The notes under the pieces were generated by a model. That model had not been told where the DNA came from and ran no database searches. It saw only the letters and a program-made list of their open reading frames with translations. Shown in pieces: positions 8,327 to 64,000 of a stretch of 64,000 bases of DNA; the stretch's first letter is position 1; each line of letters starts with the position of its first letter. The DNA is taken from the NCBI RefSeq assembly GCF_003261055.1, contig NZ_CP030073.1, forward strand, positions 7,130,001 through 7,194,000, given 5' to 3'. The translations under genes and the position numbers were made by a program. Source of the stretch: Streptomyces cadmiisoli. GTDB taxonomy: Bacteria; Actinomycetota; Actinomycetes; Streptomycetales; Streptomycetaceae.

Positions 8327-9538
8327 TCAGGCCCGCGGGTCGGGGACCGCCGCGCTCGCCTGACCGACCTTCGGGTGCTGCCGGCCGCTCGAGCGCAGGA
8401 CGCCCGCGAAGACCGCGAGCCCGCACGCCAGGGCCGTCACCAGGCCGAACGACACGACCAGGCTGGTCGCCTGCGCCAGCGAGCCGATGGCGCTCGGCGC
8501 GATCAGGCCCGAGGTGTAGGTGATGGTCGCGACGCCCGCGATGGCCTGGCTCGGGTTCGGTCCGCTGCGGCCCGCCGCCGCGAAGCACAGCGGTACGACC
8601 ACCGCGATGCCGAGGCCCATCAGCGCGAAGCCGGTCATCGCCGCCGCCGGGTGGTCCGCGACGACGATCAGCAGCCCGCCCAGGGCGGCGAGCACGCCGC
8701 TCCAGCGGACCGTGCGCACCGCGCCGAAGCGGTCCACCACCCGGTCGCCGGCGAACCGGGCCAGCGCCATCGTGAGTGTGAATCCGGTGGTGCAGGCGGC
8801 GGCGAGAGCCGCCGAACTGCCGAGCTCGTCCTCCAGGTAGACGGCCGACCAGTCCAGGCTCGCCCCCTCGGCGAACACGGCGCAGAACCCGATCGCGCCG
8901 ATCAGCACCGCCGACTTCGGCGGCAGCGCGAACCGGGGCGGCGGCTCCTCGTCCTCGGTCGGCTGGAGGTCCAGCACCCAGTGGCAGGCCACGAGGCCCA
9001 GTACGGTCAGGACGGCGGCCGCCAGGGCGTGGTGCAGCCGGGCGTCCGTCTCCAGGTGCGCCGCCAGGGTGCCGCCGGCCGAACCGACCAGGGCACCCAC
9101 GCTCCACCAGCCGTGCAGGCCCGACATGATCGACCGGCTGAGGCGGTTCTCCACCTCCACACCGAGCGCGTTCATCGCGACGTCCGCCATGCCCGCGGTG
9201 GCGCCGTAGACGAACAGGGCCGTGCAGAGCGCCGGCAGACCGGGAGCGAGGGACGGCAGGGTCAGCGACAGCGTCCACAGGGCGATCAGTCCGCGCAGCG
9301 CCGTACGGGCGCCGAAGCGGTGGCTGATCCGGCCCGCGAGTGGCATCGCGAGCGACGCCCCGAGCGCCGGGAAGGCCAGCGCGAGTCCCAACTGGCCCGC
9401 GCTCACCGAGGCGTGGTCCTGGATCCACGGCACACGGGTCGCGAACGAACCGGTGACGGCGCCGTGCACGGCGAACACGGCGGCCACCGCGTACCGGGCG
9501 TGTTTCACCTCGCGGTGCTCGCGGACCACGTCACTCAT
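8327..9538 (-). CDS. MFS transporter, sugar-permease-like
   Basis: A 403-residue protein with 12 predicted membrane segments. Its start is WIQDHASVSAGQLGLALAFPALGASLAMPLAGRISHRFGARTAL, in which GRISHRFGAR is the loop 2-3 MFS motif, and the C half carries ARFAGDRVVDRFG. Sequence style and length fit the fucose-permease/YbjJ-like branch of MFS. It is transcribed divergently from a ROK repressor, with a perfect 23-bp palindrome 49 bp before its start, so it is probably repressed by that regulator and induced by a sugar. The ligand is unknown. Confidence 0.8.
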   Translation of the reverse strand: MSDVVREHREVKHARYAVAAVFAVHGAVTGSFATRVPWIQDHASVSAGQLGLALAFPALGASLAMPLAGRISHRFGARTALRGLIALWTLSLTLPSLAPGLPALCTALFVYGATAGMADVAMNALGVEVENRLSRSIMSGLHGWWSVGALVGSAGGTLAAHLETDARLHHALAAAVLTVLGLVACHWVLDLQPTEDEEPPPRFALPPKSAVLIGAIGFCAVFAEGASLDWSAVYLEDELGSSAALAAACTTGFTLTMALARFAGDRVVDRFGAVRTVRWSGVLAALGGLLIVVADHPAAAMTGFALMGLGIAVVVPLCFAAAGRSGPNPSQAIAGVATITYTSGLIAPSAIGSLAQATSLVVSFGLVTALACGLAVFAGVLRSSGRQHPKVGQASAAVPDPRA

Positions 9539-9586
9539 TGTTCCCGCCCCTTGTCATGTCGCTGCGTCACCATGGTCGGCGGTAAA

Positions 9587-9609
9587 CTATCAGGAACCCT
9601 GCCTGATAG
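9587..9609. promoter_or_regulatory. Palindromic operator between MFS and ROK genes
   Basis: CTATCAGG and CCTGATAG form a perfect 8-bp inverted repeat separated by 7 bp, in the 131-bp divergent region. AT-rich arms like these are atypical for this GC-rich DNA, and the site sits 49 bp from the MFS start and 60 bp from the ROK start. The natural reading is an operator for the ROK protein controlling both directions. Confidence 0.7.
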
Positions 9610-9669
9610 ATAGGGGACCCTCGGCGGCCCGTCCCCGACGCGGCCCCGCCGATCTGGAAGGATCCCGGC

Positions 9670-10902
9670 ATGCCCGCATCCCCCAGCACCGCCCGGGCCA
9701 TCAACGACCGGCTCGCCCTGCGACTGCTCCAGCAGGAGGGCTCGTTGACGGCCGGACAGTTGAAGCAGCTGACCGGGCTGTCCCGGCCGACCATCGCCGA
9801 CCTGGTGGAGCGCCTCACCGCCTCCGGGCTGATCGCCGTGGTCGGGGAGGCCGGGGAGCAGCGGCGCGGGCCGAACGCGAAGCTGTACGGGATCGTCGCC
9901 GACCGGGCCCATCTGGCCGCGCTGGACGTGCGCACCGAGGGCGTCTCCGTGGTCGTCTCCGACCTGCTCGGCAAGGCGCTCGCCGAGGCGTCCGTGCCGA
10001 TCGGCGGCGACACCGGGACCGGACCCGCGGTGGAGCAGGCGGTCGCCCTCGTCGAACGTACGGCGAAGGAGGCGGGGGCCGACCGGCTGCACACCGTCGG
10101 CATCGGCGCGCCCGGCCTGATCGACCCGGCCACCGGCGAACTCCGCGACTCCTCCGGCCTGCCCGCGTGGCACCGCCGCCTCGTCGCCGCCCTCCAGGAA
10201 CGGCTGCCCGAGGCCCGGGTCATCGTCGAGAACGAGACCAACCTCGCCGCGCTGGCCGAGCAGCGGGACGGGGCGGCGAGGGACCGGGAAACCTTCGTGC
10301 TGCTGTGGCTCGGCCACGGCACCGGCGCCGCCGTCGTCCTCGACGGCGCGCTGCGCCGCGGCGCCTCCGGCGGTACCGGCGAGATCGGCTTCCTCCCGGT
10401 ACCGGGCACGGAGGGCCTGCCGTCGGCCACCGACTGCGAAGGCGGTTTCCACTCACTGGCCGGGTCGGCGGCGATCGCCGGGCTGGCGCTGGAGTACGGG
10501 GTGCCCCTCGCCGCCCGGGGACCCGAACCGATGGCGGCGGGCCTGGTGCGCGCGGCGGTCGAGACGGTGCAGGCCGGCCCCGGTGGCGCGCGCCCGGACC
10601 GGCCCGGCGCACCCGGCGACCGGGCCGACCGGTTCCTCGATGTCCTCGCCGATCGCCTGGCCATCGGCGCCGCCTCTGTCGTCGCTGTCCTCGACCCCGG
10701 ATGCGTGGTGCTCGGCGGTGAGATCGGGCAGGCCGGCGGTGCCGTGCTCGCCGGTCGCGTGGGGGAGCGGCTGAGACGGATGTCGCCCCTGGTGACGGAG
10801 GTGCGGGCGGGGGTGCTGGGCGGTGGCGCGGTGCTGCGCGGGGCGTTGCTGACCGCGCGGGACCACGCCCAGGACGAACTGTTCGCACCCCCTGAGCGCT
10901 AG
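9670..10902 (+). CDS. ROK family transcriptional regulator
   Basis: A 410-residue protein with an N-terminal winged helix-turn-helix (about 14-65: LALRLLQQEGSLTAGQLKQLTGLSRPTIADLVERL) and a C-terminal ROK sugar-kinase-like domain. The kinase signature is weak: the zinc-binding CxCGxxGC block is absent and only ATDCEGGFHSLAG is seen at that position, so it is probably a sensor without kinase activity. It is likely to control the divergent MFS gene through the palindrome between them. Its TAG stop is formed at the first bases of a MITE-like element, so the insertion occurred at the very end of the gene. Confidence 0.88.
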   Translation: MPASPSTARAINDRLALRLLQQEGSLTAGQLKQLTGLSRPTIADLVERLTASGLIAVVGEAGEQRRGPNAKLYGIVADRAHLAALDVRTEGVSVVVSDLLGKALAEASVPIGGDTGTGPAVEQAVALVERTAKEAGADRLHTVGIGAPGLIDPATGELRDSSGLPAWHRRLVAALQERLPEARVIVENETNLAALAEQRDGAARDRETFVLLWLGHGTGAAVVLDGALRRGASGGTGEIGFLPVPGTEGLPSATDCEGGFHSLAGSAAIAGLALEYGVPLAARGPEPMAAGLVRAAVETVQAGPGGARPDRPGAPGDRADRFLDVLADRLAIGAASVVAVLDPGCVVLGGEIGQAGGAVLAGRVGERLRRMSPLVTEVRAGVLGGGAVLRGALLTARDHAQDELFAPPER

Positions 10903-11132
10903 GGCCTGTCGTCGAATTCCCGTCTGCCCCGTGACGCCCGGCACGCTCCCCCAGTGCCTGAAGGGCGTGGGAGGTGCCCCCGCTCGCCGCAGCGGGCGAA
11001 AGCCCGAGTTCGTCCAGTTCGAGGACTTCCGCCCGGCACTCTCCCAGCCTCCGGCCGGGGGACCCCCGGAGCACGCACCGGACGCCGCGGGGCCGCCCTT
11101 CGGGCAACGACAGCAAGGTGACGACAGGCCCT
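10901..11132 (+). mobile_element. MITE-like element, copy 1
   Basis: A 232-bp non-coding element bounded by perfect 13-bp inverted termini (AGGGCCTGTCGTC and GACGACAGGCCCT). Its core, from about 10933 to 11035, is closely similar to the core of the element at 25129-25330 (GACGCCCGGCACGCTCCCCC start, GTGGGAGGTGCCCCC, GTCCAGT(T/A)CGAGGACT). The terminal sequences of the two copies differ. The left end overlaps the ROK stop codon. Short open frames inside it are by-products of the repeat. The internal stem CACGC/GCGTG and GGGAGGTGCCCCC may fold and act as a terminator. Confidence 0.7.
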
Positions 11133-11206
11133 GGAGCGTGTCGTCGGCGCACGGCTGGGAGGCCCGGCGGCGGGCAAGGGCCGTCGTCACCGCCGCCGGG
11201 CCGGTC

Positions 11207-11515
11207 TCACGGGGTCTGCGGGTGCCCCGTTCCGGACGGACCCCACTCGCCGGTGGCGCCGGGCTCCCGGCCCCTCGTCCACCACTCGGCCTTCCACGAG
11301 TGCCCGCGACGGGCCACCCTGCTCCTCCTCCCGCCGTGCTCCGCCGTCACGGTCCGGGCCGGAGCCGTGCACTGCCCGGTGCCGTCGGACGCGGTCGGCG
11401 TCACCGTCACCACCGAAGTCCTCGGACCGGCCCGGTCCTTGGCGTCGCCCGGCGCCGAATCGTCGTGGCCGGACCGGAACTCCGTGCCGCCGGGCAGGGG
11501 GACAGCATCGTCAGT
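11207..11515 (-). pseudogene. Chitinase remnant (C-terminal CBM5/12 chitin-binding module)
   Basis: Read on the minus strand, an open frame ends with GHSWKAEWWTRGREPGATGEWGP, the diagnostic C-terminal core of CBM5/12 chitin-binding modules. It is preceded by VVTVTPTASDGTGQCTAPA, a typical linker into such a module. No start codon or catalytic domain precedes it: only about 30 bp separate the frame from the -10 of a well-preserved chitinase-type promoter (11539-11581). The end also differs, since WGP is followed by SGTGHPQTP and a stop instead of the usual W-x-D-L-G-x-C. I read this as an internally deleted, drifting chitinase or chitin-binding protein gene. From memory S. coelicolor has a chitinase gene next to ribE at the equivalent place. 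Confidence 0.65.
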
Positions 11516-11538
11516 TCCTCTCCGCGGAAGTTGCGCAG

Positions 11539-11581
11539 ACCATAAAGAGGACTAGACCAGCACGTCAATAGGTATGGACCA
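11539..11581 (-). promoter_or_regulatory. Chitinase-type promoter with direct repeats, upstream of the remnant
   Basis: On the minus strand the -35 is TTGACG (11568-11563), with an 18-bp spacer and -10 TATGGT (11544-11539). Two 12-bp direct repeats, TGGTCCATACCT (11581-11570) and TGGTCTAGTCCT (11559-11548), flank the -35 and are 22 bp apart. Such repeats are characteristic of Streptomyces chitinase promoters. Spacing and sequence match the promoter of the intact chitinase at 26635-26676. It is preserved although the gene it served is decayed. Confidence 0.7.
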
Positions 11582-11725
11582 ATTTCAACCGGGCGTGTCG
11601 GTAAGGGAGTTGGGGTCGTTCCGGAGTGTCCGAGAAGTCCAGCGGAACGGCCTGTGAGCCACTCCACACCCCTCGCCCGCATGGACGTCGATCAGGCGTG
11701 GCAGACTGGCCGTGTACCAGAAGCA

Positions 11726-11852
11726 GCGCACTCCGGGGTCGGTGAAAGTCCGAACCGGCGGTTACAGTCCGCGACCCGGTCGCCTCCAGCGGCCGGTTGA
11801 CCAGGTGAAATTCCTGGACCGACGGTTAAAGTCCGGATGGGAGGCAGTGCGC
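11726..11852 (+). promoter_or_regulatory. FMN riboswitch (RFN element)
   Basis: The closing stem GCGCACT (11726) with AGTGCGC (11846) encloses the conserved RFN blocks in order: GGTGAAAGTCCGAACCGGCGG, ACAGTCCGCGACCCG, CCAGGTGAAATTCCTGGACCGACGG and TTAAAGTCCGGATGGGAGG. It lies 149 bp before the ribE start and therefore should control the ribE-ribM-ribBA-ribH operon, lowering expression when FMN is abundant. Between the aptamer and the start no classic U-tract terminator is obvious, so control of translation or Rho-dependent termination is as likely as an intrinsic terminator. The stretch 11586-11725 before it shows nothing further that I can assign. Confidence 0.95.
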
Positions 11853-12000
11853 GGCGGGCGGGCATTCGTGCGCGCCGCCGTAGGTGCTCGTCCAGGGTGA
11901 CGGGTGCCGTCCGGCGTCGCCCCCGGTGTCGCCGTCCGTTCATTCTGTCGTCATCGACAGCCCCGGAGTCCGTGCCCGAAGAGGCAGGAGGACCCGGGAA

Positions 12001-12603
12001 GTGTTCACCGGAATCGTCGAAGAGCTGGGCGAAGTCACGGCCGTCGAGAACCTCGGCGACGCCTCACGTTTCCGGCTGCGCGGCCCCGTAGTCACCGAGG
12101 ACGCGAAGCACGGCGACTCGATCGCCGTCAACGGTGTGTGTCTCACGGTCGTCGAGCACGAGGGCGACGAGTTCACGGCCGACGTCATGGCCGAGACCCT
12201 CGACCGCTCCAGCCTCGGCGCCCTCACCGTCGGCTCCCGCGTCAACCTCGAACGCCCCACCGCCGTCGGCGCCCGCCTCGGCGGGCACATCGTGCAGGGA
12301 CACGTCGACGGCACCGGCTCCGTACTGGCGCGCACGCCGTCCGAGCACTGGGAGATCGTGAAGATCTCCCTCCCCGACCACCTCGCGCGCTACGTCGTCG
12401 AGAAGGGCTCCATCACCGTCGACGGCATCAGCCTCACCGTCGTCGAGGCCGGCCCCGACCACTTCAGCGTCAGCCTCATCCCCACCACCCTCGCGCTGAC
12501 CACCCTCGGTCTGAAGCAGCCCGGCGACCCGGTCAACCTCGAGGTCGACATCATCGCCAAGTACGTCGAGCGGCTCCTCGGCTCACCCGGAGCGGCGCGG
12601 TGA
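12001..12603 (+). CDS. ribE: Riboflavin synthase, alpha chain
   Basis: A 200-residue protein starting at GTG 12001 with [11 protein letters not shown], the universal RibE/RibC start, preceded by GGAGG. It contains the internal lumazine-binding duplication: [12 protein letters not shown] and [12 protein letters not shown] are the paired repeat motifs, and [12 protein letters not shown] lies between. It converts two 6,7-dimethyl-8-ribityllumazine molecules to riboflavin plus the RibA/H intermediate. It is the first gene after the FMN riboswitch, and its stop overlaps the next start (GTGA). In-frame codons upstream to 11884 are inside the leader and are rejected. Confidence 0.95.
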
Positions 12604-13241
12604 GCCGGCTCGACTCCGAGGCCTTCGTCCTGTTCGGCCAGCACATCATCTGGTCGGACATGGTCGGCAACATCCTCGGGCTGATCGCGCTCGCCCTCGG
12701 GTGGTGGCGCTCCGTGTGGACCTGGCCGGTGCAGTTCCTGTCCGGCGTCATCCTCTTCACCGCCTTCTACGGCCACCTCGCCGGCAGCGCCGGCAAACAG
12801 GTCGTCGTCATGGCCGTCGCGCTGTACGGCTGGTGGCAGTGGAACCGCGGCAGCGGCCGGGCCGAGGACGGCCGCATATCCGTCCGCTTCGCCACCTGGC
12901 GCGAGCGTGCGGCGATGATCGCCGCCGCGGCCGCCGGCACGGTCGCGGTGGCCCTGATCTTCAAGGCCTACCCGTCGCTGTCCTGGGACCCCTGGCCGGA
13001 CGCCTACATCTTCGTCGGCACGATCGTCGCCATGTACGCCCAGGCGCGCGGCATGGTCGAGTTCTGGTTCGCCTGGCTGCTCGTCGACCTGGTCGGCGTG
13101 CCGCTCAACTTCGCCAACGGCTACGCCTTCTCCGGCTTCGTCTACGTCATCTACGGCGCACTCGTCCTGTGGGGCATGCGCGACTGGTGGCTGCGCTCCC
13201 GCAAGGACGCGCGGCCCGTCCTGGAAGGAGCGCCGGCATGA
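12600..13241 (+). CDS. ribM: PnuC-family transporter, probable riboflavin importer RibM
   Basis: A 213-residue membrane protein with about seven hydrophobic segments and the PnuC-family features [36 protein letters not shown] and [29 protein letters not shown]. Related PnuC proteins import nicotinamide riboside. Members inside actinobacterial rib operons under an FMN riboswitch (RibM/PnuX) transport riboflavin, and that context applies here. The GTG start overlaps the ribE stop and the stop overlaps the ribBA ATG, indicating translational coupling. Confidence 0.85.
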
Positions 13242-14608
13242 GCGCCCGCCCGTCTGCCACCACCACCCTCAACGAGGCCGTCCCGGAGCCGGGCTCCTGG
13301 GAGGACCACCACCGCGCCACTCCCGCGACCCCGGCGCTCTACGGCACCGAGGACCTCGACGACCTCAGCCTCGACCCGGTCGAGCAGGCCGTCGCCGACA
13401 TCGCGGCCGGACGCCCGGTCGTGGTCGTCGACGACGAGGACCGGGAGAACGAGGGCGACCTCGTCATCGCCGCCGAGAAGGCGACCCCCGAGATCGTCGC
13501 CTTCATGATGAGCGAGTGCCGCGGCCTGATCTGCGCCCCGATGGAGGGCGACGAACTCGACCGGCTGCGTCTGCCGCAGATGGTCGAGGACAACACCGAG
13601 TCGATGAAGACCGCCTTCACCGTCTCCGTGGACGCCTCCCCGGCGCACGGCGTGACCACCGGCATCTCCGCGTCCGACCGCGCGACCACGCTGCAACTGC
13701 TCGCCGGCGGCACGGCCGAGCCCGGCGACCTGGTCCGCCCCGGCCACATCTTCCCGCTGCGCGCCAGGCCCGGCGGCGTGCTCGTCCGCAACGGCCACAC
13801 CGAGGCCGCCGTCGACCTCGCCCGGCTCGCCGGTCTGCGCCCGGCCGGCGCGATCGTCGAGATCGCCGGTGAGGACGGCCGCATGCTGCGCCTGCCCGAG
13901 CTGATCCCGTTCGCCCGCAAGCACGGCCTGACGATCATCTCCATCGCGGACCTGATCGCCTACCGCCGCACCAGCGAGCCCACCGTCCGCCGCGAGGCCC
14001 GGACGCAGCTGCCCACCGCCCACGGCACGTTCACGGCGTACGGCTACCGGTCCACCCTCGACGGCGTCGAGCACATCGCGCTCGTCCACGGCGACCTCGG
14101 TGACGGCGAGGACGTCCTCGTCCGCGTCCACTCCGAATGCCTCACCGGGGACGTCTTCCACTCGTTGCGCTGCGACTGCGGCCCCCAGCTGGAGACCGCT
14201 CTGGAGCGCGTCCACGCCGAGGGCCGGGGCGTCGTGGTCTATCTGCGCGGACACGAGGGCCGCGGGATCGGCCTGCTGTCCAAGCTCCGCGCCTACGAGC
14301 TCCAGGAGCGCGGGCGCGACACCCTCGACGCCAACCTGGAACTCGGCCTGCCCGCCGACGCCCGGGACTACGCCGCCGGCGCGCAGATCCTGACCGATCT
14401 CGGGGTGCGCAGCGTGCGTCTGATGACCAACAACCCCGACAAGACCGACGCCCTCCTGCGGCACGGACTCCAGGTCACCGACCGCGAGCCCATGCCCGTG
14501 CAGGCGGGCGAACACAACCTCCGTTACCTGCGCACCAAGCGGGACCGGATGGGGCACGACCTGCCCTGGCTGGACACGACCACCGTGTCCGCCTGCGGCA
14601 ACCAGTGA
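13238..14608 (+). CDS. ribBA: Bifunctional DHBP synthase / GTP cyclohydrolase II
   Basis: A 456-residue fusion. The first half (about 45-250) is 3,4-dihydroxy-2-butanone-4-phosphate synthase, with [42 protein letters not shown] and [10 protein letters not shown]. The second half (about 255-450) is GTP cyclohydrolase II, with the zinc ligands in [19 protein letters not shown], the catalytic GHEGRGIGL and MTNNPDK. It supplies both precursors of the riboflavin pathway. The ATGA overlap with ribM fixes the start. About 40 residues at the N-terminus precede the first domain and look unstructured. Confidence 0.95.
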
Positions 14609-53275: not shown

Positions 53276-53992
53276 ATGGCAGAGCAGCTGACGGGACTGG
53301 CCGACGACCGCGCGCTCCTCGGGCGCACCAGCACCGCCGAGCGGGTCTCGGACATCCTCAGGAGCCGTATCGCCGAGGGGTACTTCCCGCCCGGGACCCG
53401 GCTCTCGGAGGACAGCATCGGCGGAGCGCTCGGCGTCTCCCGCAACACGCTCCGCGAGGCGTTCCGGCTGCTCACGCACGAACGACTGCTCGTACACGAG
53501 CTGAACCGCGGTGTCTTCGTCCGGGTCCTGACCGTGGACGACGTCGAGGACATCTACCGCACCCGACGCCTGGTCGAATGCGCCGTCGTCCGCGGGCTGG
53601 GGGAGCCGCCGTACGCGCTCGACCGCCTCGCCTCGGCCGTGGCCGAGGGGGAGCGGGCCGCCGTCGAGAATGACTGGAAAGGGCTGGGCACGGCCAACAT
53701 CCACTTCCACCGCGAACTGGTCGCCCTCGCCGAGAGCGACCGCACCGACGAACTGATGCGCAGCGTCTTCGCCGAACTGCGCCTGGCCTTCCACGTCGTG
53801 GACGACCCGCGCCGGCTGCACGAGCCGTACCTCGCGCGCAACCGCCAGATCCTCCAGGCCCTGGAGACCGGCGCCAAGGACGAGGCCGAGCGGCTGCTCG
53901 CCGTGTACCTGGACGACTCCCTCGCCCGGGTCGTCGAGGTCTACCGGCGCCGCGTGGGCGAGGACGGGCAGCCCTCGGCCGCGTCGGCCTGA
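53276..53992 (+). CDS. GntR family regulator, FCD domain
   Basis: A 238-residue protein. The winged helix (about 20-82) is TAERVSDILRSRIAEGYFPPGTRLSEDSIGGALGVSRNTLREAFRLLTHERLLVHELNRGVFV, and the C-terminal FCD domain has DVEDIYRTRRLVECAVVRGL, ANIHFHRELVALAESDRTDELM and FHVVDDPRRLHEPYLARNRQILQALETGAKDEA. The Asp/His set (D, HFH, H) binds a metal and an organic acid in this family. It is divergent from the pxp operon and very likely its regulator. Confidence 0.9.
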   Translation: MAEQLTGLADDRALLGRTSTAERVSDILRSRIAEGYFPPGTRLSEDSIGGALGVSRNTLREAFRLLTHERLLVHELNRGVFVRVLTVDDVEDIYRTRRLVECAVVRGLGEPPYALDRLASAVAEGERAAVENDWKGLGTANIHFHRELVALAESDRTDELMRSVFAELRLAFHVVDDPRRLHEPYLARNRQILQALETGAKDEAERLLAVYLDDSLARVVEVYRRRVGEDGQPSAASA

Positions 53993-54212: not shown

Positions 54213-54277
54213 GCCGGCGCAGGGGCCCATCTGCGTCGTTTGGGTCGTTGTCGGACCGAGGACCTAATCTGTGCACC

Positions 54278-55804
54278 GTGACTTCGCCTGCATCGACGGA
54301 CAGCGTTCCGCCCCAGTTCAACGCGGGGCCGCGGCCCGCTCCGGGCCCGGCCGCCGACGAGGGACTGGCGCGGCGGCTGCGCGCGCTCGCGTGCACCGCG
54401 CCGCTGCACGACCTGGACGCGCGCAAGGCCAATCTGGCGGGCGAGTACGCGGTGTACGGCATGGCGGAGGTCGCCCTCGCGGCCATCGATCTGGTCACCC
54501 TCAACATGGACTTCGACACCGGCGCCGACCACGACCAGGTGGTGGCCCGGCTGCTGCCGCGCATCGCCGCGCAGGCCCCGCGGCGCCCGGTCGCCGAGCA
54601 CGAGCGCGTGGCCCGCTGGGTGCTGGAGAACCTGATCAACGTCGGCAGCGTGGACCGCGGATTCCGCGTGGTCTACGGCACGTTCGCGTCGGACGGCACC
54701 TACGTCCGGCGTGACTACGACTTCAAGCTGATCGAGGAGGTGCCGGGCCCCGGCGGCAGTGTCTACCTCCGCACCACGGACGAGGCCGTCAACGTCCTGG
54801 TCGGCGCCCTCGACACGGACGTCACCAGCGCGCAGATCGCCGCCGAGGTCAAGCTGGAGGTGCTGATCAACCGCGGCCGGCTCGCCGACGCGCAGCTGGC
54901 CGCCGAACAGGCCCGCTACCGCACCGTCCAGTACTCGGAGACCCTGCGCAGGGCGCTGGAGGCGACCCGGCGCAACGTGCGCGCGGTGGACTGGCTCGGC
55001 ACCGTGCCCGACATGATCGCCGAGGCCCTCGACCACGTCGCCGACCGCTACCGCCACGAGAACGCGATCCTCACGAACATCCGCAGGGCGCGCGACGAGT
55101 CGGAGGACCCCGAGCACAAGCGGCGCGCCGCCGAGCTGGTCGACATCGTCAAGGACTGCATCCGGCGCCACACCCAGCTCCAGTCCCGGCTGCTGGAGGC
55201 CGGGCCGCTGTTCCGGGCCGAACAGGACCGGCAGGCCTTCGCCACCCCGATGACCACCTCCGGCACCGATCTGTACGGCCATCTCGTGGCGCCGCTGCTG
55301 CCGCTGCCGCTGGCAGGGGCGCTCCGGGTCACCGACGCGTTCTTCGCCCGCGGCACCGGCCCGCGCACACCGGTGTCCGTGCGCGTCGGTGACCTCGTCG
55401 ACCTCCTGCTCACCCCGCCGGTCGAGCGGGAGCACCTGGGCGCGGAGATGCCCGAGCCGGACCTGATCGCCACGCCGGACGACAGCCGGTTCAGCGAGGA
55501 GCAACTGGCGGCGGCCACGCAACTGCTGGACCTGCCTGCGGACGCGCCGCGGCGGCTGTCGGGACTCCTGGCGCAGGCCCGCGGAACCGACCCCGATCTG
55601 CCGTACCTGGTGGCTCTGATGGCGGTGCACGCGGCGAGCCCGGCGGTGGGGACGGCCTACCGGCAGGGGGAGCAGAAGCTGCTGTTCTCCGTCGACGACG
55701 GGACGGAACTGGACGACCCGGAGTTCGGCGGGGCCGACCTCATCGTCGGGACCGCGCTGCTGGACGCCGTCGCCATGGCCGCCGACCGGACGGAGGCCGC
55801 GTGA
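54278..55804 (+). CDS. SMC-operon subunit A (MukF/JetA-like candidate)
   Basis: A 508-residue, mostly helical soluble protein; GTG 54278 opens VTSPASTDSVPPQFNAGP. Beginning regions (RRLRALACTAPLHDLDARKANLAGEYAVYGMAEVALAAIDLV) and the centre (TLRRALEATRRNVRAVDWLGTVPDMIAEALDHVADRYRHENAILTNIRRARDESEDPEHKRRAAELVDIVKDCIRRHTQLQSRLLEAG) are strongly helical, as in the kleisin-like subunits MukF and JetA. I recognise no named domain. It starts an operon whose third gene is an SMC-like ATPase, so a kleisin-type role is inferred from size, order and helicity, not from homology. Confidence 0.6.
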   Translation: MTSPASTDSVPPQFNAGPRPAPGPAADEGLARRLRALACTAPLHDLDARKANLAGEYAVYGMAEVALAAIDLVTLNMDFDTGADHDQVVARLLPRIAAQAPRRPVAEHERVARWVLENLINVGSVDRGFRVVYGTFASDGTYVRRDYDFKLIEEVPGPGGSVYLRTTDEAVNVLVGALDTDVTSAQIAAEVKLEVLINRGRLADAQLAAEQARYRTVQYSETLRRALEATRRNVRAVDWLGTVPDMIAEALDHVADRYRHENAILTNIRRARDESEDPEHKRRAAELVDIVKDCIRRHTQLQSRLLEAGPLFRAEQDRQAFATPMTTSGTDLYGHLVAPLLPLPLAGALRVTDAFFARGTGPRTPVSVRVGDLVDLLLTPPVEREHLGAEMPEPDLIATPDDSRFSEEQLAAATQLLDLPADAPRRLSGLLAQARGTDPDLPYLVALMAVHAASPAVGTAYRQGEQKLLFSVDDGTELDDPEFGGADLIVGTALLDAVAMAADRTEAA

Positions 55805-55913
55805 GCCCCACCCCGCCCGTCGAGTGCGGGCCGTTCCTGCCCCGTCGCGCGATCGCGCGCACCCCCGGGGGCTTCGGCCCCGAGTTCGTCGCCGAGTCCG
55901 AGGAGTCGCGGTC

Positions 55914-56789
55914 GTGAGTGAGCACGTTGAGCCGGAAGGCGGTCCGGCGGCGGTGAGCCCCGCCGCCGTCACCCCCGCGGACGCCGCCGACGCGGCGCGG
56001 CTCGTCGCGTTCGGGCTGCAACCGAAGCTGCTGCCCGCCCGGGACCAGGAGTACGCGGACCTGCTGCGACGCCACCGGGAGGACCCGGCGTTCGCGCGGC
56101 TCGCGGACGCCGTGGCCGCCGGGCTCGGACTGATCGTGCTGGAGGTCTCCCCGCGCGCGGGCATGGCGGTCACCGCGGCCGAGGACTCGGTGTTCGCCGT
56201 TCGCATGGGCGACTACGCGCGCCGTACGGCCGCCGACTCCGGCGACCGCTTCCTGCACGGGCTCGCGCACCTCGCCGTGGCCGCGATGGCGTTCCCGCGC
56301 CCGGAGGACCTCGCCGACGACGGCTACATCGGGCGCGTCACGGTCAACGGCGTCGACGCCTTCGTACGGCAGGCGTGCCGCCGTCTGGAGGAGCGGGCCG
56401 CCGACCAGGGGGAGAACACCGACCCCGCCACCGACACACCCGGCCTGGAGGCCGCCTGGCGGATCTGGGTCAGACGCAGCGCGACGGGCGCCACGAAGGA
56501 CGCGCGCCGCCTCGCCGGTTCCACGACAGGCATCATCGGCAAGGCCGTGACGTTCCTCACCGACTCCGGATTCCTGCAGCGCACGGGCGACGACAACGGC
56601 GGCACGTACCGCACCACCGCCCGGTACCAGCTCCAGGTCCGCGACATGGCGTCCAGCGCCGCCATGGCCGAACTGCTGGAACTGGGTGTCGTCCCGGTCA
56701 CCGACGGCACCCCGACGCTGCTGCCCGCCGAGGACACCGACGACCTGGATCTGGTGGCCGACGCCGGGCTGCCCTTCCACACCGCCTGA
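55914..56789 (+). CDS. SMC-operon subunit B (MukE/JetB-like candidate)
   Basis: A 291-residue protein starting at GTG 55914 (VSEHVEPEGG), with GAGGAG upstream. About residues 40-150 form an alpha/beta part (FGLQPKLLPARDQEYADLLRRHREDPAFARLADAVAAGLGLIVLEVSP) and 170-245 a winged helix (EAAWRIWVRRSATGATKDARRLAGSTTGIIGKAVTFLTDSGFLQRTGDDNGGTYRTTARYQLQVRDMA). Double winged-helix subunits of this size are the MukE/JetB members of condensin-like complexes. It lies 110 bp after subunit A and 37 bp before the SMC gene. Homology has not been shown by search. Confidence 0.65.
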   Translation: MSEHVEPEGGPAAVSPAAVTPADAADAARLVAFGLQPKLLPARDQEYADLLRRHREDPAFARLADAVAAGLGLIVLEVSPRAGMAVTAAEDSVFAVRMGDYARRTAADSGDRFLHGLAHLAVAAMAFPRPEDLADDGYIGRVTVNGVDAFVRQACRRLEERAADQGENTDPATDTPGLEAAWRIWVRRSATGATKDARRLAGSTTGIIGKAVTFLTDSGFLQRTGDDNGGTYRTTARYQLQVRDMASSAAMAELLELGVVPVTDGTPTLLPAEDTDDLDLVADAGLPFHTA

Positions 56790-56826
56790 ACCGCCCCCTT
56801 CTGACGAAGACTTACGAGAGTCCGCC

Positions 56827-59800
56827 ATGTACGAGCTGTCCCGGGTCCGCCTCTACTCCATCGGGCCCGCCGGTGCGCGCTACGCCGACACCGTGCTTGA
56901 CCTGCGTGGAGTGGGCGAGCCCGTGCCCGATCCCGCGCCCACCCAGGCGGCGTTCTTCGAGGAGGAGCCGGTCGGTCCGCCGCGCCGGCCCGCACCCGCG
57001 GGCGTGCTCTTCCTGGAGAACGGCGGCGGCAAGTCCGTCCTGCTGAAGTTGATCTTCTCGGTGATGCTGCCCGGCCACCGGAACACGCTGGGCGGCGCCA
57101 GCTCCGGCGTGCTGCGGAAGTTCCTGCTCGCCGACGACTGCGGGCACGTCGCGCTGGAGTGGCAGCACGTGCAGACCGGCGAGTGCGTCGTCGTCGGCAA
57201 GGTGAGCGAATGGCGCGGACGGCAGGTCTCCAACGACCCGCGGAAGTTCGCCGAGGCCTGGTACTCCTTCCGGCCCGGACCCGGTCTGACGCTGGACAAC
57301 CTGCCCGTCGCCGAGGCCACCTCCGTACGCCCGACCGTGGAGGGCCAGTCGGGCGCCCAGGGCCGCCGGCGCACCATGAAGGGCTTCCGCGACGCGATCA
57401 CCGAGGCGGGCAAGGCGTACCCGCACCTGGAGGTGCACTGGGAGGAGATCCACGACCGGTGGATCGAGCACCTCGGGGACCTCGGACTCGACCCCGAACT
57501 CTTCCGCTACCAGCGGGAGATGAACGCCGACGAGGGCGAGGCCGCCGGACTCTTCGCGGTCAAGAAGGACTCCGACTTCACCGACCTGCTGCTGCGCGCC
57601 GTCACCGACACCCGTGACACCGACGGGCTCGCCGACCTCGTCAGCGGTTTCGGCAACAAGCTGGGCCGACGCGCCGAGCTGATCGCGGAACGGGACTTCA
57701 CCGCCGGTTCGGTCGATCTGCTCGGCCGGATCGTGGAGATGGCCGAGGCCCGCGCACGCGCCCGTGACGTCCACACCGGCGCCGAGCGGCGGGCGCGGAC
57801 CCTGGCGCGCAGGCTGTCCGCGCGCGGTGCCCAGGAGCGGATGCGGGCCGCCGACCTCGCCCAGCGCGTCACGGCCGCCGCCTACGCCGTGACCCACGCC
57901 GATTCGGCACGGGAGCGCAGCGCGCTGATCGCCGCCGAACTCGCCTACCGGCACGCCTCGCTGGCGCTGACGGCCGCCGAGAAGTCCGCGGCAGCGCAGA
58001 AGCGGGAACTCGCCGACGCACGCACCCTGCACTCCGCCTGGCAGGCCGCGGAGGCCGCACTGCGGCACCGCGCCGCCGCCGACCGGGTCGCGCGGGTCGC
58101 CGTCGCCATCCAGGAGGCCGAACGCGACGCCGCCCCCGCGCTGGCCGCCCGGGCGAAGGCCGCCGTCGACCTGGTCCGGGCCCTGCACGCGGCCGCGGAG
58201 AGCGCCGAGACCCTGGCCAACGAGCAGGAGGAGCGGTCCGGCGCGCTCCAGGAGGTCAGCGACAGCGCGTACCGGGACTCCACCGGCGCCGCCACCCAGG
58301 CGCAACGGGCCCGCAGCGATGCCGAGCACCTGCGCCAGCGCCTGACCGAGGTCGAGCAGGAGACCGCGGAGGCGGTGCGCGCGGGCTGGCTGGACGACAG
58401 CGCCCCCGACGCCGACCCGGCACGCGCCGCCCTCGCCGCCAGCGACGCCGAGAAGTCGGCGGTGGCCGCCTGGGACACCGCGCGGGAAGCCTCCCGCCGG
58501 GCCGGCGAGCACGCCCGGGAGTCCGCCTCGGCCGAGTCCCGCGCGGAGCTGACGGCGGCCCGGGCCGCGGACGCCGCGACGGCGGCCGAGCGGTCCTACG
58601 ACGCCGAACGCCGCGTCGCCGAGACGCTCGCCGCGGAGGAGCGCCTCGCCGAGCTGCTCAGCCTGCCCACCGCCGCCCGCCCGGCACCGGGCGGCGTGCC
58701 GGCGCCCCGCGCGGGGGCCGACGACATCGACGGCGCGACGGCGGACACCGCCGACGGTGCCGCCGCCCCGGACGCCGCCGACGGCGCGACGGGCGGCCGC
58801 CCCGCGCCCGGCGCGGACGGCGCCACCCGGCGCTCCCCGCGTCCCCTTCGCCCCGAGGCCGAAGGGGCGCTCGACGCCGAGGAGCTGGACCGGTTCGCCG
58901 ACGAGCTGCGCGAACTGCTGGACGACACGGTCGCCTCGTCCGAACGGCACCTGTTCGAACTGCGCACCGCCGCCGCCGACGACGCCCGGATCCTGGGCGC
59001 GCTCGGCGACGGCGGACTGCTGCCGCCCGGCCCCGACGTGCTGGCCACCGTGGAGTACCTCGGTGAGCACGGCATCCCCGCCCTGCCCGGCTGGCGCTAT
59101 CTCGCCCAAGCGGTCGACCCCGCCGACCACGCGCGGGTGCTGGCCGCACGTCCGGAGCTGGTCGACGGCGTGATCATCACCGACCCGGCGTCCCACGCCC
59201 GGGCCCGCGAGACGCTGAACGACGCCGCGCTGCTGCCCCGTTCGACGGTGGCGGTCGGCACCGCCGCCGCCCTGCTCGCCCCCACCCCGCCCGCCGACGC
59301 GACGCCCGCCGACGTCTTCCTGGTCCCGCCGAACCCGGCCATGCACGACGAGCACGCCGCCGACGAGGAGCGGCAGACCCTGCGCGCGAGGGCCACCGAA
59401 CGCGACGAGGAGATCCGCACGCTCGCCGCGCGCCTCGGCAAGGACCGGGAACTGGCGGCCCGGCTCGCCTCCTGGCGCACGGGCTGCCCGGCCGGGCGGC
59501 TGATCGAGCTGGCGCAGAGCGCGCGGGACACCCGGGCGTTCGCCGAGGAGGCCGAGGCCGAGCTCGTTCAGGCGCGGACCGTGCGCGCCGAGGCCGAGGA
59601 GGCCGCGGCGGAGACGGCGCAGGTGCGCGAGGAGCGCCAGGAGGCCGCGCAGAAGGCCCGACGGGCCGCCGACGCCCTGGCCGGACTGGCGTTCCGGCTG
59701 CGGGAGCGGGCCGGCTGGCAGGTCAAGTCGCGCGAACTCGCCGACGAGGCCGCCGACTCCGAGGAGCGCGCGCAGACCTGTCTGGAGCGGGCCCGCGTCG

Positions 59801-61581
59801 CCGACGAGGACCGGCGCGCCGCCCAGCGGGCAGCCGACGACGCCCGCCGCACCGCGCGCGCGTTGCGCGCCGAGCGCTCCGAGATCGCCGGCGCACCCGA
59901 CGACGTACCGGACGACGGCACGGACCGCCCCAGGACGGCGCTGCCCGCACTGCGCGAGGCCTATCGCGCCGCCTCCCAGGTGTACGAGAAGGTCGGTGTC
60001 GGCGCCGACCTGCGGGCCGAGCAGGCCCGCGCGGAGAGCGACGAGAGCGCGGCCCGCGCGGAGCTGGACCGGCTGAGCAACAAGGTCCGCACCCGCGCGG
60101 AGCTGCTGCTGGAGTCCCCCGACGGCGCCGACGGCCCGTCCCGGCAGGCCGCCGCGGCGCGCGCCGAGGAGCACGTACAGCTCCTGGAGACCCGTATGTC
60201 CAGCGCCAGCGAGCAGCTCGGCCGGCTGCGCGGCGAGGCCGAGCGGCACGCGCCCGAGGACGGCGACGCGCACACCGAGCTGCCCGAGGAGTCGCAGCCC
60301 CGCGACGCCGAGCACGCCCAGGCGCTGCTGCGCACCGCCACCGCCGAACTGGGCGCCCGGACCGACGCGTTGAGCGCGGCCCGGGAGGCCCACGCCGAAC
60401 TGCTCGACGCGCACCGCGCCGCGCAGGACGCGGCCGGCGGCTTCGACGAGATCGCCGCGATGCTGCGGGACCTGTTGCGCGAGCAGCCCGGCGACGAGGA
60501 GCCGGAGTCGCCGGAGCCGTACCCGGGCGGCTTGGAGGACGCCCGGCAGTCCGCCGCGGAGGCCCGCCGGTCGCTGCGCGGCTGCGCCGCCGACCTGTCG
60601 GCCGCCGAGACGGCGGTACGCGAGGCGAGTGACATCCTGGTCCGGCACGCCAACTCCACCCGCTACGAGCAGGTGCGCACCCCCGCACGGCAGCAGATCC
60701 GCGAGCTGCCCGCGCCCACCCTGCCGGAGCACGCCCAGAAGTGGGCCGACGCGTTCGCGCCCCGGCTGCGTGTCCTCACCGACGAACTGGCCCAGCTGGA
60801 ACGCAACCGGGACTCGATCGTGGACCGGCTGCGCGGCCTGGTGGACTCGGCGCTGGCCACCCTGCGTTCCGCGCAGCGGCTGTCCCGGCTGCCCGAAGGG
60901 CTCGGCGAGTGGTCCGGGCAGGAGTTCCTGCGCATCCGCTTCGAGGAGCCCGACCAGGCCACCCTCACCGAGCGGCTCGGCGAGGTCATCGACGAGGCGA
61001 CCAGGGCCGCCGTGAAGAAGAACTCCGACCTGCGGCGCGACGGGATGTCCCTGCTGCTGCGGGGGGTGGCCGCCGCGCTCCGGCCCAAGGGCGTGGCCGT
61101 CGAGATCCTCAAGCCGGACGCCGTCCTGCGCGCCGAGCGGGTGCCCGTCGGGCAGATGGGCGACGTGTTCTCCGGCGGTCAGCTGCTGACCGCGGCCATC
61201 GCCCTGTACTGCACCATGGCCGCGCTCAGGTCGAACGACCGGGGCCGTGACAAGCAGCGGCACGCCGGGACGCTGTTCCTGGACAACCCGATCGGCCGCG
61301 CCAACGCGACGTATCTGCTGGAGCTTCAGCGGGCCGTGTCCGACGCGCTCGGCGTCCAGCTGCTGTACACCACCGGTCTGTTCGACACGACGGCACTCGC
61401 GGAGTTCCCGCTCGTCATCCGGCTGCGCAACGACGCGGACCTCCGAGCGGGGCTGAAGTACATCAGCGTGGAGGAGCACCTGCGGCCCGGTCTGCCGCAG
61501 CAGCCGCAGGCCGGGGAGGCCGGGCACAGCGAGATCACGGCCACCCGGATGTTCAAGCGCCCGGCACCGGCCGCCTCCTGA
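56827..61581 (+). CDS. SMC-like coiled-coil ATPase (MukB/JetC-like candidate)
   Basis: A 1584-residue protein. An N-terminal ATPase half (P-loop LENGGGKS at residues 63-70) is followed by a long Ala/Glu/Arg-rich coiled coil, a central hinge-like domain at about 740-850 (ATVEYLGEHGIPALPGWRYL ... VIITDPASHARAR), a second coiled coil, and a C-terminal half with signature FSGGQ (1448-1452) and Walker B LFLDNP (1483-1488). This is the layout of SMC proteins. Two positions are unusual: the first Gly of the P-loop is Leu, and the catalytic Glu after the Walker B Asp is Asn1487. A disordered Asp/Ala insert lies at about 620-680. It is the third gene of the operon. Confidence 0.8.
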   Translation: MYELSRVRLYSIGPAGARYADTVLDLRGVGEPVPDPAPTQAAFFEEEPVGPPRRPAPAGVLFLENGGGKSVLLKLIFSVMLPGHRNTLGGASSGVLRKFLLADDCGHVALEWQHVQTGECVVVGKVSEWRGRQVSNDPRKFAEAWYSFRPGPGLTLDNLPVAEATSVRPTVEGQSGAQGRRRTMKGFRDAITEAGKAYPHLEVHWEEIHDRWIEHLGDLGLDPELFRYQREMNADEGEAAGLFAVKKDSDFTDLLLRAVTDTRDTDGLADLVSGFGNKLGRRAELIAERDFTAGSVDLLGRIVEMAEARARARDVHTGAERRARTLARRLSARGAQERMRAADLAQRVTAAAYAVTHADSARERSALIAAELAYRHASLALTAAEKSAAAQKRELADARTLHSAWQAAEAALRHRAAADRVARVAVAIQEAERDAAPALAARAKAAVDLVRALHAAAESAETLANEQEERSGALQEVSDSAYRDSTGAATQAQRARSDAEHLRQRLTEVEQETAEAVRAGWLDDSAPDADPARAALAASDAEKSAVAAWDTAREASRRAGEHARESASAESRAELTAARAADAATAAERSYDAERRVAETLAAEERLAELLSLPTAARPAPGGVPAPRAGADDIDGATADTADGAAAPDAADGATGGRPAPGADGATRRSPRPLRPEAEGALDAEELDRFADELRELLDDTVASSERHLFELRTAAADDARILGALGDGGLLPPGPDVLATVEYLGEHGIPALPGWRYLAQAVDPADHARVLAARPELVDGVIITDPASHARARETLNDAALLPRSTVAVGTAAALLAPTPPADATPADVFLVPPNPAMHDEHAADEERQTLRARATERDEEIRTLAARLGKDRELAARLASWRTGCPAGRLIELAQSARDTRAFAEEAEAELVQARTVRAEAEEAAAETAQVREERQEAAQKARRAADALAGLAFRLRERAGWQVKSRELADEAADSEERAQTCLERARVADEDRRAAQRAADDARRTARALRAERSEIAGAPDDVPDDGTDRPRTALPALREAYRAASQVYEKVGVGADLRAEQARAESDESAARAELDRLSNKVRTRAELLLESPDGADGPSRQAAAARAEEHVQLLETRMSSASEQLGRLRGEAERHAPEDGDAHTELPEESQPRDAEHAQALLRTATAELGARTDALSAAREAHAELLDAHRAAQDAAGGFDEIAAMLRDLLREQPGDEEPESPEPYPGGLEDARQSAAEARRSLRGCAADLSAAETAVREASDILVRHANSTRYEQVRTPARQQIRELPAPTLPEHAQKWADAFAPRLRVLTDELAQLERNRDSIVDRLRGLVDSALATLRSAQRLSRLPEGLGEWSGQEFLRIRFEEPDQATLTERLGEVIDEATRAAVKKNSDLRRDGMSLLLRGVAAALRPKGVAVEILKPDAVLRAERVPVGQMGDVFSGGQLLTAAIALYCTMAALRSNDRGRDKQRHAGTLFLDNPIGRANATYLLELQRAVSDALGVQLLYTTGLFDTTALAEFPLVIRLRNDADLRAGLKYISVEEHLRPGLPQQPQAGEAGHSEITATRMFKRPAPAAS

Positions 61582-61647: not shown

Positions 61648-63198
61648 TCAGGCGTCCTCCTTCAGCAGGTCAGCGCACTTCTCGCCGATCACCATCGTCG
61701 TGATGCACGGATTGACCGTCACCAGATCCGGCATCACCGAACCGTCCGCCACCCGCAGACCCTCGACGCCCTTCACCCTCAGCCGGGCGTCGAGCGGGGC
61801 CGAGGGGTCGTCGTCGGCGCCCATCCGCACCGTGCAGGACGGGTGGTAGACGGTGTTGTGGGTCTTGCGGATGTAGTCGAGCAGTTCGCCGTCCGACCGG
61901 ACGTCCGGGCCCGGCGCCAGCTCCGCGCCGGCCCAGCCGCTCAGCGCCGGCTGCGCGGCGATCCTGCGGGCCAGCCGCAGCCCGTACGTCATCACCCGCA
62001 CGTCGTGCTCGTGCGTGAAGTACCGCGGGTCGACCCTCGGCCTGTCGCGGTGGTCCCGGGTCCGCAGCCGCACCGTTCCCCGGGACCTGGCGCGGGTGAC
62101 GTTCGGGGTGAGGCAGAACGCGTTCTCCGAGGTCGGGTAGCCCCACCGCGCCGTGTTGAGGTCGAAGGGCACCGAGCCGTAGTGGAACATCAGGTCGGGC
62201 CGGTCCAGACCCGGCTCGGTGTCGTAGAAGACGCCCGCCTCCCACCACTGGCTGGACGTGGTGGTCATCGGCCGGGCGGCCTCCCACATGATGACGCCCT
62301 CGGGATGGTCCTGGAGGTTCTCGCCGACGCCCGGCGCGTCCACGGTCACCTCGACGCCGACCTCCCTGAGGTGCTCGGCGGGGCCGATGCCGGACAGCAT
62401 CAGCAGCTTCGGCGAGTCGATCGCGCCGCACGAGACGACGACCTCCCGCCGGGCCCGGACCGTCCGGGTGCGGATCAGGTCCGGGTCCAGGTACTCGGCG
62501 CCGGTGCACCGCCGTCCCTCCAGCACCAGCCGTCTGGCCCGCACCCCCGTGCGCACGACCAGGTTCGGCCGCTTGCCCATCACCGGATGCAGATAGGCCA
62601 CCGAGGAGGACTGCCGGACGTTGTTCTCGTCGGCGTTGATCTGGAACCAGTTGGCGCCGCGGACCACGGTCGTACCCGTGTTGAAGCCGACCGTGGGGAT
62701 GCCCGCCTGCGCGCACGCCTCCAGCAGCGCCGCCCCGCAGGGGTCCTCGCCCTTGAGGGTGCGCAGCTTCACCGGGCCGGTGCGGCCGTGGTGGTCGCCG
62801 GGCGCGTCGTTGGCCTCGAGCCGGCGGTAGAGCGGGAAGAGGTCGGCCGCGCCCCAGCCCGGGCAGCCGGCCGCGGCCCAGTCGTCGAGGTCCTCGGCGG
62901 GGGCCCAGAAGGCGATGCACGAGTTGTGCGAGGAGCAGCCGCCGAGCACCTTGGCGCGGGCGTGCCGCAGGAAGCTGTTGCCGGCCTCCTGCGGCTCGAC
63001 CGGGTAGTCCCAGTCGTAGCCGGACTCCAGCAGGCCCATCCAGCGCTCCAGCCTCAGGACGTCGTCGACGCCGACGTCGCTCGGGCCGGCTTCCAGGACG
63101 CACACGGTGACCGAGGGGTCCTCGGAGAGTCTGGCCGCGACCACGTTTCCCGCGGTGCCGCCGCCGACCACGACGTAGTCGAACTCGTCGGTGTGCAT
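61648..63198 (-). CDS. GMC family FAD oxidoreductase (choline-dehydrogenase-like)
   Basis: A 516-residue flavoenzyme. The dinucleotide motif FDYVVVGGGTAGNVVAARLSEDPSVTVCVLEAGP opens the protein, then WDYPVEPQ, KVLGGCSSHNSCIAFWAP (GMC signature 1), VSCGAIDSPKLLMLSGIGPAEHL (signature 2) and the C-terminal HNTVYHPSCTVRMGADDDPSAPLDARLRVKGVEGLRVADGSVMPDLVTVNPCITTMVIGEKCADLL with the His/Asn pair. It oxidises an alcohol, possibly choline, given the APC permease 16 bp upstream in the same operon. The start ATG 63198 is set by the family motif. Choline is inference. Confidence 0.85.
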   Translation of the reverse strand: MHTDEFDYVVVGGGTAGNVVAARLSEDPSVTVCVLEAGPSDVGVDDVLRLERWMGLLESGYDWDYPVEPQEAGNSFLRHARAKVLGGCSSHNSCIAFWAPAEDLDDWAAAGCPGWGAADLFPLYRRLEANDAPGDHHGRTGPVKLRTLKGEDPCGAALLEACAQAGIPTVGFNTGTTVVRGANWFQINADENNVRQSSSVAYLHPVMGKRPNLVVRTGVRARRLVLEGRRCTGAEYLDPDLIRTRTVRARREVVVSCGAIDSPKLLMLSGIGPAEHLREVGVEVTVDAPGVGENLQDHPEGVIMWEAARPMTTTSSQWWEAGVFYDTEPGLDRPDLMFHYGSVPFDLNTARWGYPTSENAFCLTPNVTRARSRGTVRLRTRDHRDRPRVDPRYFTHEHDVRVMTYGLRLARRIAAQPALSGWAGAELAPGPDVRSDGELLDYIRKTHNTVYHPSCTVRMGADDDPSAPLDARLRVKGVEGLRVADGSVMPDLVTVNPCITTMVIGEKCADLLKEDA

Positions 63199-63214
63199 GA
63201 GCTGCTGACCCCCT

Positions 63215-64000
63215 TCAGTCGGCCGCCGGGGCGGTGGGCCGGGCGGAGGACTCCAGCCGGTGCTCGGCGAGGACGCCGGTGCGGTGGCGCTGGACGAACC
63301 AGTAGTAGGCGAAGCCGCCGCCCGCGATGACCGCGACGAACAGGACGGCACCCCACCGCAGGTACCAGTGGAACGGCGCCGACGCGTTGTACACCGAGGC
63401 GCGCGGCCAGATCAGGTTGACGGTCATCGCCAGCCCCCACAGCACCGCCGCGATGTTGACGGGCAGTCCCCACCGGCCCAGCGAGAACCTGCCCTCGGCG
63501 GGCTGCCACCTGCCGCGCAGCCGGGCCACCAGCATCGGCGCGGTCACGCCGAGGTAGGCGAGGTAGATCATGATGATGCCGATGCTGGTGACCACGGTGA
63601 AGATCTGCGGCTGGCGGATGTTGACCACGAGGATCGCCAGCGCGAGGACACCGATGACCACGGCCGGCAGCACCGGCGTGTGGAAGCGCGGGCTGACCCG
63701 GGCCATCAGGGCGGACGCGGGCAGGTTGTTGTCCCGCGCCATCGCGAACGCCAGCCGGATCGCCGCGGTGTGGACGGCCAGGGCGCACACCGTGACCGCG
63801 ATCAGCACGCACCACAGCATCGCCTTGCCGGCCGTCGGGCCGAGCACGTCGAGCACGATGTACTGGAGGCCCTCCGTCGACAGCTTGTCCCCGTTCAGGG
63901 TCGACACGCTCATCAGCGCGAGCAGCAGGACCAGCCCGCCCAGGACGAACGAGGCGACGATCGCGCGGATGATGGCGCGCGGCGCGTTGCGGGACGGGTC
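63215..64000 (-). CDS. APC-family amino acid permease (5' partial)
   Basis: The last 261 residues of an amino acid/polyamine/organocation transporter; the frame is open to the window edge, with DPSRNAPRAIIRAIVASFVLGGLVLLLALMS, and the start lies beyond. At least seven hydrophobic segments are visible, including AMARDNNLPASALMARVSPRFHTPVLPAVVIGVLALAILVV, the APC-type region. It shares an operon with the GMC oxidoreductase. The substrate is unknown; an alcohol amine such as choline or ethanolamine would fit the context. Confidence 0.8.
   Translation of the reverse strand, partial: DPSRNAPRAIIRAIVASFVLGGLVLLLALMSVSTLNGDKLSTEGLQYIVLDVLGPTAGKAMLWCVLIAVTVCALAVHTAAIRLAFAMARDNNLPASALMARVSPRFHTPVLPAVVIGVLALAILVVNIRQPQIFTVVTSIGIIMIYLAYLGVTAPMLVARLRGRWQPAEGRFSLGRWGLPVNIAAVLWGLAMTVNLIWPRASVYNASAPFHWYLRWGAVLFVAVIAGGGFAYYWFVQRHRTGVLAEHRLESSARPTAPAAD

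Follow-up and report, generated by a model that had tools for sequence, protein, structure and literature searches.

What does a Wadjet-type operon do once it stands without the nuclease JetD? The question is raised by a locus of Streptomyces cadmiisoli, situated in the 64,000-nucleotide stretch analyzed here and referred to as the window (C1:7130001-7194000; replicon C1 comprises 9,269,371 bases and the second replicon, C2, 969,901 bases). Three co-directional genes on the forward strand form a compact operon: the jetA3-like gene A (54278..55804, 508 aa), the jetB-like gene B (55914..56789, 291 aa) and the jetC3-like gene C (56827..61581, 1584 aa), which encodes an ATPase of the structural maintenance of chromosomes (SMC) type. 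The original prediction had described them as encoding an SMC complex of three subunits, similar to MukBEF and Wadjet but lacking JetD. This is borne out, the three reading frames being real and of the sizes claimed, and the complex can be placed more closely in the type III Wadjet lineage. We consider it probable, though well short of certain, that JetABC is a type III Wadjet motor that has become domesticated and is now inherited vertically as a second SMC complex, most likely a chromosomal one like MksBEF of Pseudomonas aeruginosa. The evolutionary part of this reading is strong, and a chromosomal role is what we infer for the complex.

The lineage of the operon was assigned with PADLOC models. 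A is matched by the JetA3 model PDLC00567 (E=6.9e-187) over positions 34-516 of a 518-aa open reading frame (ORF), and C by the JetC3 model PDLC00588 for DUF3584-type SMC ATPases (E=0, 1410.8 bits). By these matches, the operon belongs to the type III Wadjet lineage. B is matched by no PADLOC model, and the JetB of a complete, JetD-containing type III operon in the same genome (~C1:1.859-1.867 Mb) is equally unmatched; B is predicted to be JetB because it lies between A and C and because, across 249 residues, it is 41% identical to the product of the middle gene in that paralogous operon. A and C are 36% and 31% identical to their counterparts there, respectively, the value for C covering 916 columns of its second half. 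None of the three proteins has a Pfam or NCBIfam match above the curated cut-off; the matches below it are at chance level, one for B (E 0.3) and one for A (E 0.26). Wadjet type I membership was rejected, as no DUF3375 JetA or DUF4194 JetB match was obtained and all PADLOC matches are to type III models; this agrees with the original prediction, in which A and B were judged unlike these type I proteins. SMC-ScpAB identity was rejected as well. C matches none of the NCBIfam families, and a genome search with TIGR02168, which recovers the ordinary smc gene at C1:2954852-2958394 (924.9 bits), lists nothing at the locus. Since JetD was tested for and is absent, JetABC is treated as a derivative of a Wadjet system and is not filed as Wadjet itself.

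JetABC is near-universal in both the genus and the family samples. In the genus, 193 of 199 genomes give a match to the JetA of the window, as do 192 of the 194 with at least 90% completeness and at most 5% contamination. In the family sample, a JetA match is present in 120 of 121 genomes and in all 17 genera. The class sample yields JetA3 model matches in 43 of 296 genomes, of which 28 belong to the family of the window (f1) and 15 to a second family (f18), taken as Frankiaceae from its best protein matches (Frankia, Pseudofrankia); within the latter, JetA is matched in 19 of 35 genomes, JetD-bearing copies included. A few genomes give weaker matches. One Streptomyces genome, G081, has a middling JetA match (8e-172), another, G121, only a distant one (1e-67), and G207, which alone represents its genus in the family sample, likewise has only a distant match (1e-16), in an operon with JetD (L158). 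The weak-only matches of G121 and G207 suggest that the core copy has been lost from these genomes.

The absence of JetD from the locus, as claimed in the original prediction, holds in a whole-genome search with the JetD_C model, which places no match in the window and nine elsewhere in the genome. That prediction had also considered that JetD might turn up in the operon of close relatives. For this comparison, the best 80 of at least 540 related stretches, all from Streptomyces, were used (hereafter the named loci), and two JetD proteins served as queries: JetD is found at none of the 80, of which 74 are readable past JetC. A single tblastn match, in L077, was judged spurious. Across the genus, the JetD3 model matches 29 of 199 genomes, 15 of them with more than 150 bits, and PF09983 matches 25; together they identify 32 genomes, none of which is among the six without a JetA match. 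Consequently, in 161 of the 193 JetA-matching genomes neither model detects a JetD anywhere. Among loci of the window type beyond Streptomyces, JetD3 was found neither in the stretches fetched for 15 from Frankiaceae nor in those for 19 from other Streptomycetaceae genera, although five of the Frankiaceae contigs (L107, L112-L115) stop within the operon or no more than ~100 bases past JetC. Type III operons outside this group carry JetD3 after JetC where that stretch is readable. Since JetD3 positions guided the retrieval of most JetD-bearing loci, the presence of JetD in them is no finding; among second JetA copies chosen by JetA alone, JetD3 stands beside JetC in six of six (L135-L140), and a further copy, L120, is cut inside JetC. 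Because the operon is near-universal and devoid of JetD wherever the stretch after JetC can be read, JetD appears to have been missing already in the ancestor of this group rather than to have been lost locally.

In a tree built on A, B and C, the JetD-less operons group together. Of 72 operons collected, 58 were kept, comprising 38 JetD-less and 20 JetD-bearing operons; the other 14 have a missing or short subunit (L105, L107, L111, L112, L114, L120, L121, L125, L127, L134, L138, L141, L149 and L160). In the FastTree reconstruction, all 38 JetD-less operons fall into one clade with a support of 1.0 and no JetD-bearing member, which splits into a Streptomycetaceae and a Frankiaceae subclade; for two of the 38 (L113 and L115), the stretch after JetC is unreadable. 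A quick IQ-TREE analysis of A and B gives one change of JetD state, with a Shimodaira-Hasegawa-like approximate likelihood ratio test (SH-aLRT) value of 97 on that branch; the program flags long branches for the JetD-bearing operons. Under midpoint rooting, the JetD-less clade is nested among JetD-bearing operons. To our knowledge, JetD occurs in all Wadjet types. Taken together, the nested position and the general occurrence of JetD suggest a single loss as the simplest reading, with JetD lost rather than never present. The extra JetA copies of G119, G121, G128 and G171 lie outside the tree and may hold further JetD-less operons.

Within each family, inheritance of the operon looks vertical. 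When the JetA+B tree of 28 genomes was compared with that of rpoB, 15 of 25 splits were common, compared with a mean of 1.6 and a maximum of 6 in 1000 within-family shuffles; of the well-supported splits, 18 in rpoB and 17 in Jet, 13 are common and none is in supported conflict. The mean Jet-to-rpoB distance ratio for A+B is 2.98 within Streptomycetaceae, 2.89 between the families and 9.02 within Frankiaceae, and by these values the Frankiaceae copy may have arisen by descent or by an old transfer. Median identities of the window proteins to those of the named loci are 92.1% for A (80 loci), 88.7% for B (80) and 87.4% for C (74). The corresponding median ratios of nonsynonymous to synonymous substitution (dN/dS) are 0.095 for A, 0.141 for B and 0.147 for C (80 loci each, with C measured on the best aligned piece), while those of neighboring genes are 0.176 for GntR (79 loci), 0.157 for MFS (69) and 0.192 for LamB (68). 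Judged by these ratios, A, B and C are under purifying selection. Such values, of 0.10-0.15, are difficult to reconcile with a decaying Wadjet remnant, as is the completeness of A and B in 80 of 80 named loci and of C in the 74 where it is not cut by a contig end, as it is in the remaining six; the ATPase motifs of JetC are also retained in 38 of 38 JetD-less sequences. Some copies do look broken or short (L149, L160, L161 and the JetC of L105 and L111), which may reflect either assembly error or decay, and a remnant is an explanation to which we give almost no credence.

The retained motifs comprise Walker A, ENGGGKS, at residues 64-70 of the window JetC (57016..57036, forward strand, as for the following), the ABC signature FSGGQ at residue 1448 (61168-61182), and Walker B, LFLDNPIG, at residue 1483 (61273-61296). 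The composition of JetC is coiled-coil-like at ~301-600 and ~851-1400 and richer in Gly and Pro in the center, ~601-850, where a low-complexity linker (residues 615-673; 58669..58845) precedes the central hinge-like region. A layout of head, coiled coil, hinge-like center, coiled coil and head is thus predicted. Two variations were seen in the nucleotide-binding motifs. In five of 20 JetD-bearing type III JetC sequences (L011, L117, L122, L139 and L140), the Walker A sequence is GGGKG and lacks the customary Ser/Thr. In Walker B, the Asp is followed by Asn in the 58 JetC sequences, JetD-bearing and JetD-less alike; in many SMC proteins, this place is taken by the catalytic Glu. For JetA, the AlphaFold2 model has a predicted local distance difference test (pLDDT) score of 61, and MukF chains are a recurring weak, co-linear structural match to it, the longest extending over residues 47-493. 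The JetB model, with a pLDDT of 40, is too poor for fold comparison, and a JetB profile search of PDB sequences returned no KITE protein among the matches. A is accordingly described here as a putative kleisin and B as a putative KITE subunit.

The start of the operon is conserved as well. With the window aligned to 79 named loci (the eightieth begins too near a contig end), the ~40 bp before A together with the start of A are mostly more than 90% conserved, which delimits a jetA promoter region at 54238..54280 (forward strand). A -10-like TAATCT at 54265-54270 lies 7 nt before the GTG start of jetA, a spacing that points to a leaderless transcript. An alternative TTG start of A at 54248 is unlikely, since it is covered by the conserved promoter block. 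The flanks agree with the original prediction: a GntR/FCD regulator gene adjoins A upstream (53276-53992, forward strand), as a GntR gene does in 79 of 80 named loci, and a convergent GMC oxidoreductase gene adjoins C downstream (61648-63351, reverse strand). Neighbor genes were compared between three groups of loci, from Streptomyces (15), other Streptomycetaceae (19) and Frankiaceae (15), and apart from A-C none is common to all three groups; this comparison covers flanks of a few kb, several of them cut by contig ends, and ORFs that are 120 codons or longer and have a high GC content at third positions, frames overlapping A-C being set aside.

These observations bear on the two roles between which the original prediction had left the choice, a chromosomal complex like MksBEF and a plasmid or phage defense that recruits a nuclease from elsewhere. 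We favor the chromosomal role, since 161 of the 193 JetA-matching genus genomes lack a detectable JetD and no other neighbor gene is common to the compared loci. Under this reading, JetD would have been lost once, in the ancestor of the Streptomycetaceae and Frankiaceae copies, and the operon would then have been kept as a chromosomal complex. JetC would dimerize through its hinge and bind ATP with its heads, which JetA would bridge while carrying JetB; the ATP cycle would drive DNA loop extrusion as in other JetABC and MukBEF motors, and extrusion would end without cutting because JetD, the cleaving subunit, is absent. According to the available passages of PMC12647877, JetABC of Wadjet extrudes plasmid DNA and then activates JetD. 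JetABC may in this way complement SMC-ScpAB as a second condensin that folds or segregates the chromosome. The phenotype of smc deletion leaves room for such a complex, being mild: in Streptomyces coelicolor, as reported in the accessible part of PMC4255302, the deletion gives 7% anucleate spores and no temperature sensitivity, and combined deletion of smc and parB gives 23% anucleate spores.

A role in anti-plasmid or anti-phage defense, with or without a recruited nuclease, is appreciably less likely, although it deserves to be weighed. JetABC would then trap or silence extrachromosomal DNA uncut, or would recruit an unrelated nuclease in trans. The closest relatives of the operon are JetD-bearing operons that PADLOC types as Wadjet, a defense system, and a non-cleaving restriction has been proposed, as a model, for human Smc5/6 (PMC10586767, in the passages available). 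Sporadic occurrence is seen for JetD3, however, of which only 15 of 199 genomes have a match above 150 bits, and not for JetABC, which is near-universal, vertical, of low dN/dS and preceded by a conserved promoter; a partner gene common to the compared flanks is also lacking.

Conservation by itself leaves the role unspecified, and a housekeeping function of another kind, such as DNA repair, conjugative DNA transfer, septal DNA clearance or telomere-related work, has to be considered too. Both families that carry the JetD-less operon consist of filamentous sporulating actinomycetes, which can be counted in favor of such a function. We regard it as less likely again than defense, for JetABC has the architecture of SMC complexes that extrude loops, and the precedent, MksBEF, is described in the text available as acting on chromosome organization.

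It is also conceivable that JetABC works with a JetD that comes in trans from a different Wadjet operon of the same cell. The search of the rest of the genome for JetD, which the original prediction had called for, located it in the type III operon at 1.86 Mb and near the replicon ends. There, a complete type I operon, JetA1-B1-C1-D1, is situated at the left end of C1 (L009:11744-18427), and further JetD matches lie at the right end of C1 and at both ends of C2, so that type I JetD is present at four replicon ends in all. In the whole genome, the JetC3 model has just two targets, the locus in the window, which it matches in two pieces, and the operon at 1.86 Mb. Supply in trans nevertheless appears very improbable for JetABC, given the 161 JetA-matching genomes without detectable JetD and the mere 31-41% identity of the type III paralogue in this genome. 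The matching JetD genes at the replicon ends suggest terminal repeats common to the chromosome and the large plasmid. Other features were noted in these regions. A second, partial JetD_C match occurs in a 258-aa frame ~2.2 kb beyond each terminal JetD1 (L005-L008), and an SbcD-like metallophosphatase gene is present near a replicon end (L009:5274-6596); beside it, a 1083-codon frame gives a weak SMC-type match (C1:5131-5262), and the two are perhaps an SbcCD pair. The type III Wadjet operon (L011:1137-9028) adjoins a convergent gene for a 1502-residue protein (9408-13916) with an AAA match below the cut-off, and the two may constitute a defense island.

The components of JetABC are of a known kind; for their combination, a JetD-less type III complex that is near-universal in a family, literature searches of open-licence PubMed Central text returned no description. 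In the available passages of PMC13121528 and PMC8410768 on Streptomyces chromosome folding, SMC is the only condensin named for the genus. We put it at an even chance that JetABC is a second, undescribed core condensin of Streptomyces and its family, that is, a type III Wadjet motor that has been domesticated, has lost its nuclease a single time and shares compaction and segregation of the chromosome with SMC-ScpAB, helping to explain the mildness of the smc deletion. If this is true, a second SMC complex is a missing player in the folding of a linear, multi-copy genome and in its segregation into spores, and JetABC becomes a candidate for the redundancy behind the mild smc phenotype (PMC4255302, as far as its text is available). 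A defense machine would seemingly have turned into a core cellular component through the loss of its nuclease. As some genomes, S. cadmiisoli included, hold both JetD-bearing and JetD-less relatives, the shift of an SMC motor from cutting to folding can be tested side by side.

Among known systems, Wadjet type III (JetA3-JetB3-JetC3-JetD3) shares with the locus the gene order A-B-C, the JetA3 and JetC3 models and the placement in the tree among such operons. It differs in that the locus described here is without JetD, and is near-universal and vertical rather than sporadic. In an Actinobacteria survey made with DefenseFinder, in which the present locus may or may not have been counted, Wadjet is enriched in the phylum and, in Streptomyces, towards the chromosome ends (PMC10482375, available passages). 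SMC-ScpAB of Streptomyces is an SMC complex of the same cell, but no family model for SMC or Scp is matched by A, B or C, and JetABC is additional to it. MukBEF likewise has three subunits and no nuclease, and MukF is the weak structural match to the JetA model; in contrast, no significant sequence match links MukBEF to A, B or C. MksBEFG of Corynebacterium glutamicum and EptABCD of Mycobacterium smegmatis resemble JetABC as actinobacterial SMC-kleisin-KITE complexes, whereas they include a nuclease, MksG/JetD, and have plasmids as their substrate, according to the accessible portions of PMC10123090 and PMC10586767. P. aeruginosa MksBEF has the same set of SMC, kleisin and KITE subunits without a nuclease, the kleisin and KITE being predicted in the present case, and is itself thought to derive from JetABCD through JetD loss (PMC10586767, in the part available). 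The parent lineage here is type III, in contrast to MksBEF, and MksB was compared solely through missing Pfam and NCBIfam matches. If the chromosomal reading of JetABC is true, Wadjet defense has been converted into a chromosome machine at least twice independently, in MksBEF of P. aeruginosa and in JetABC described here.

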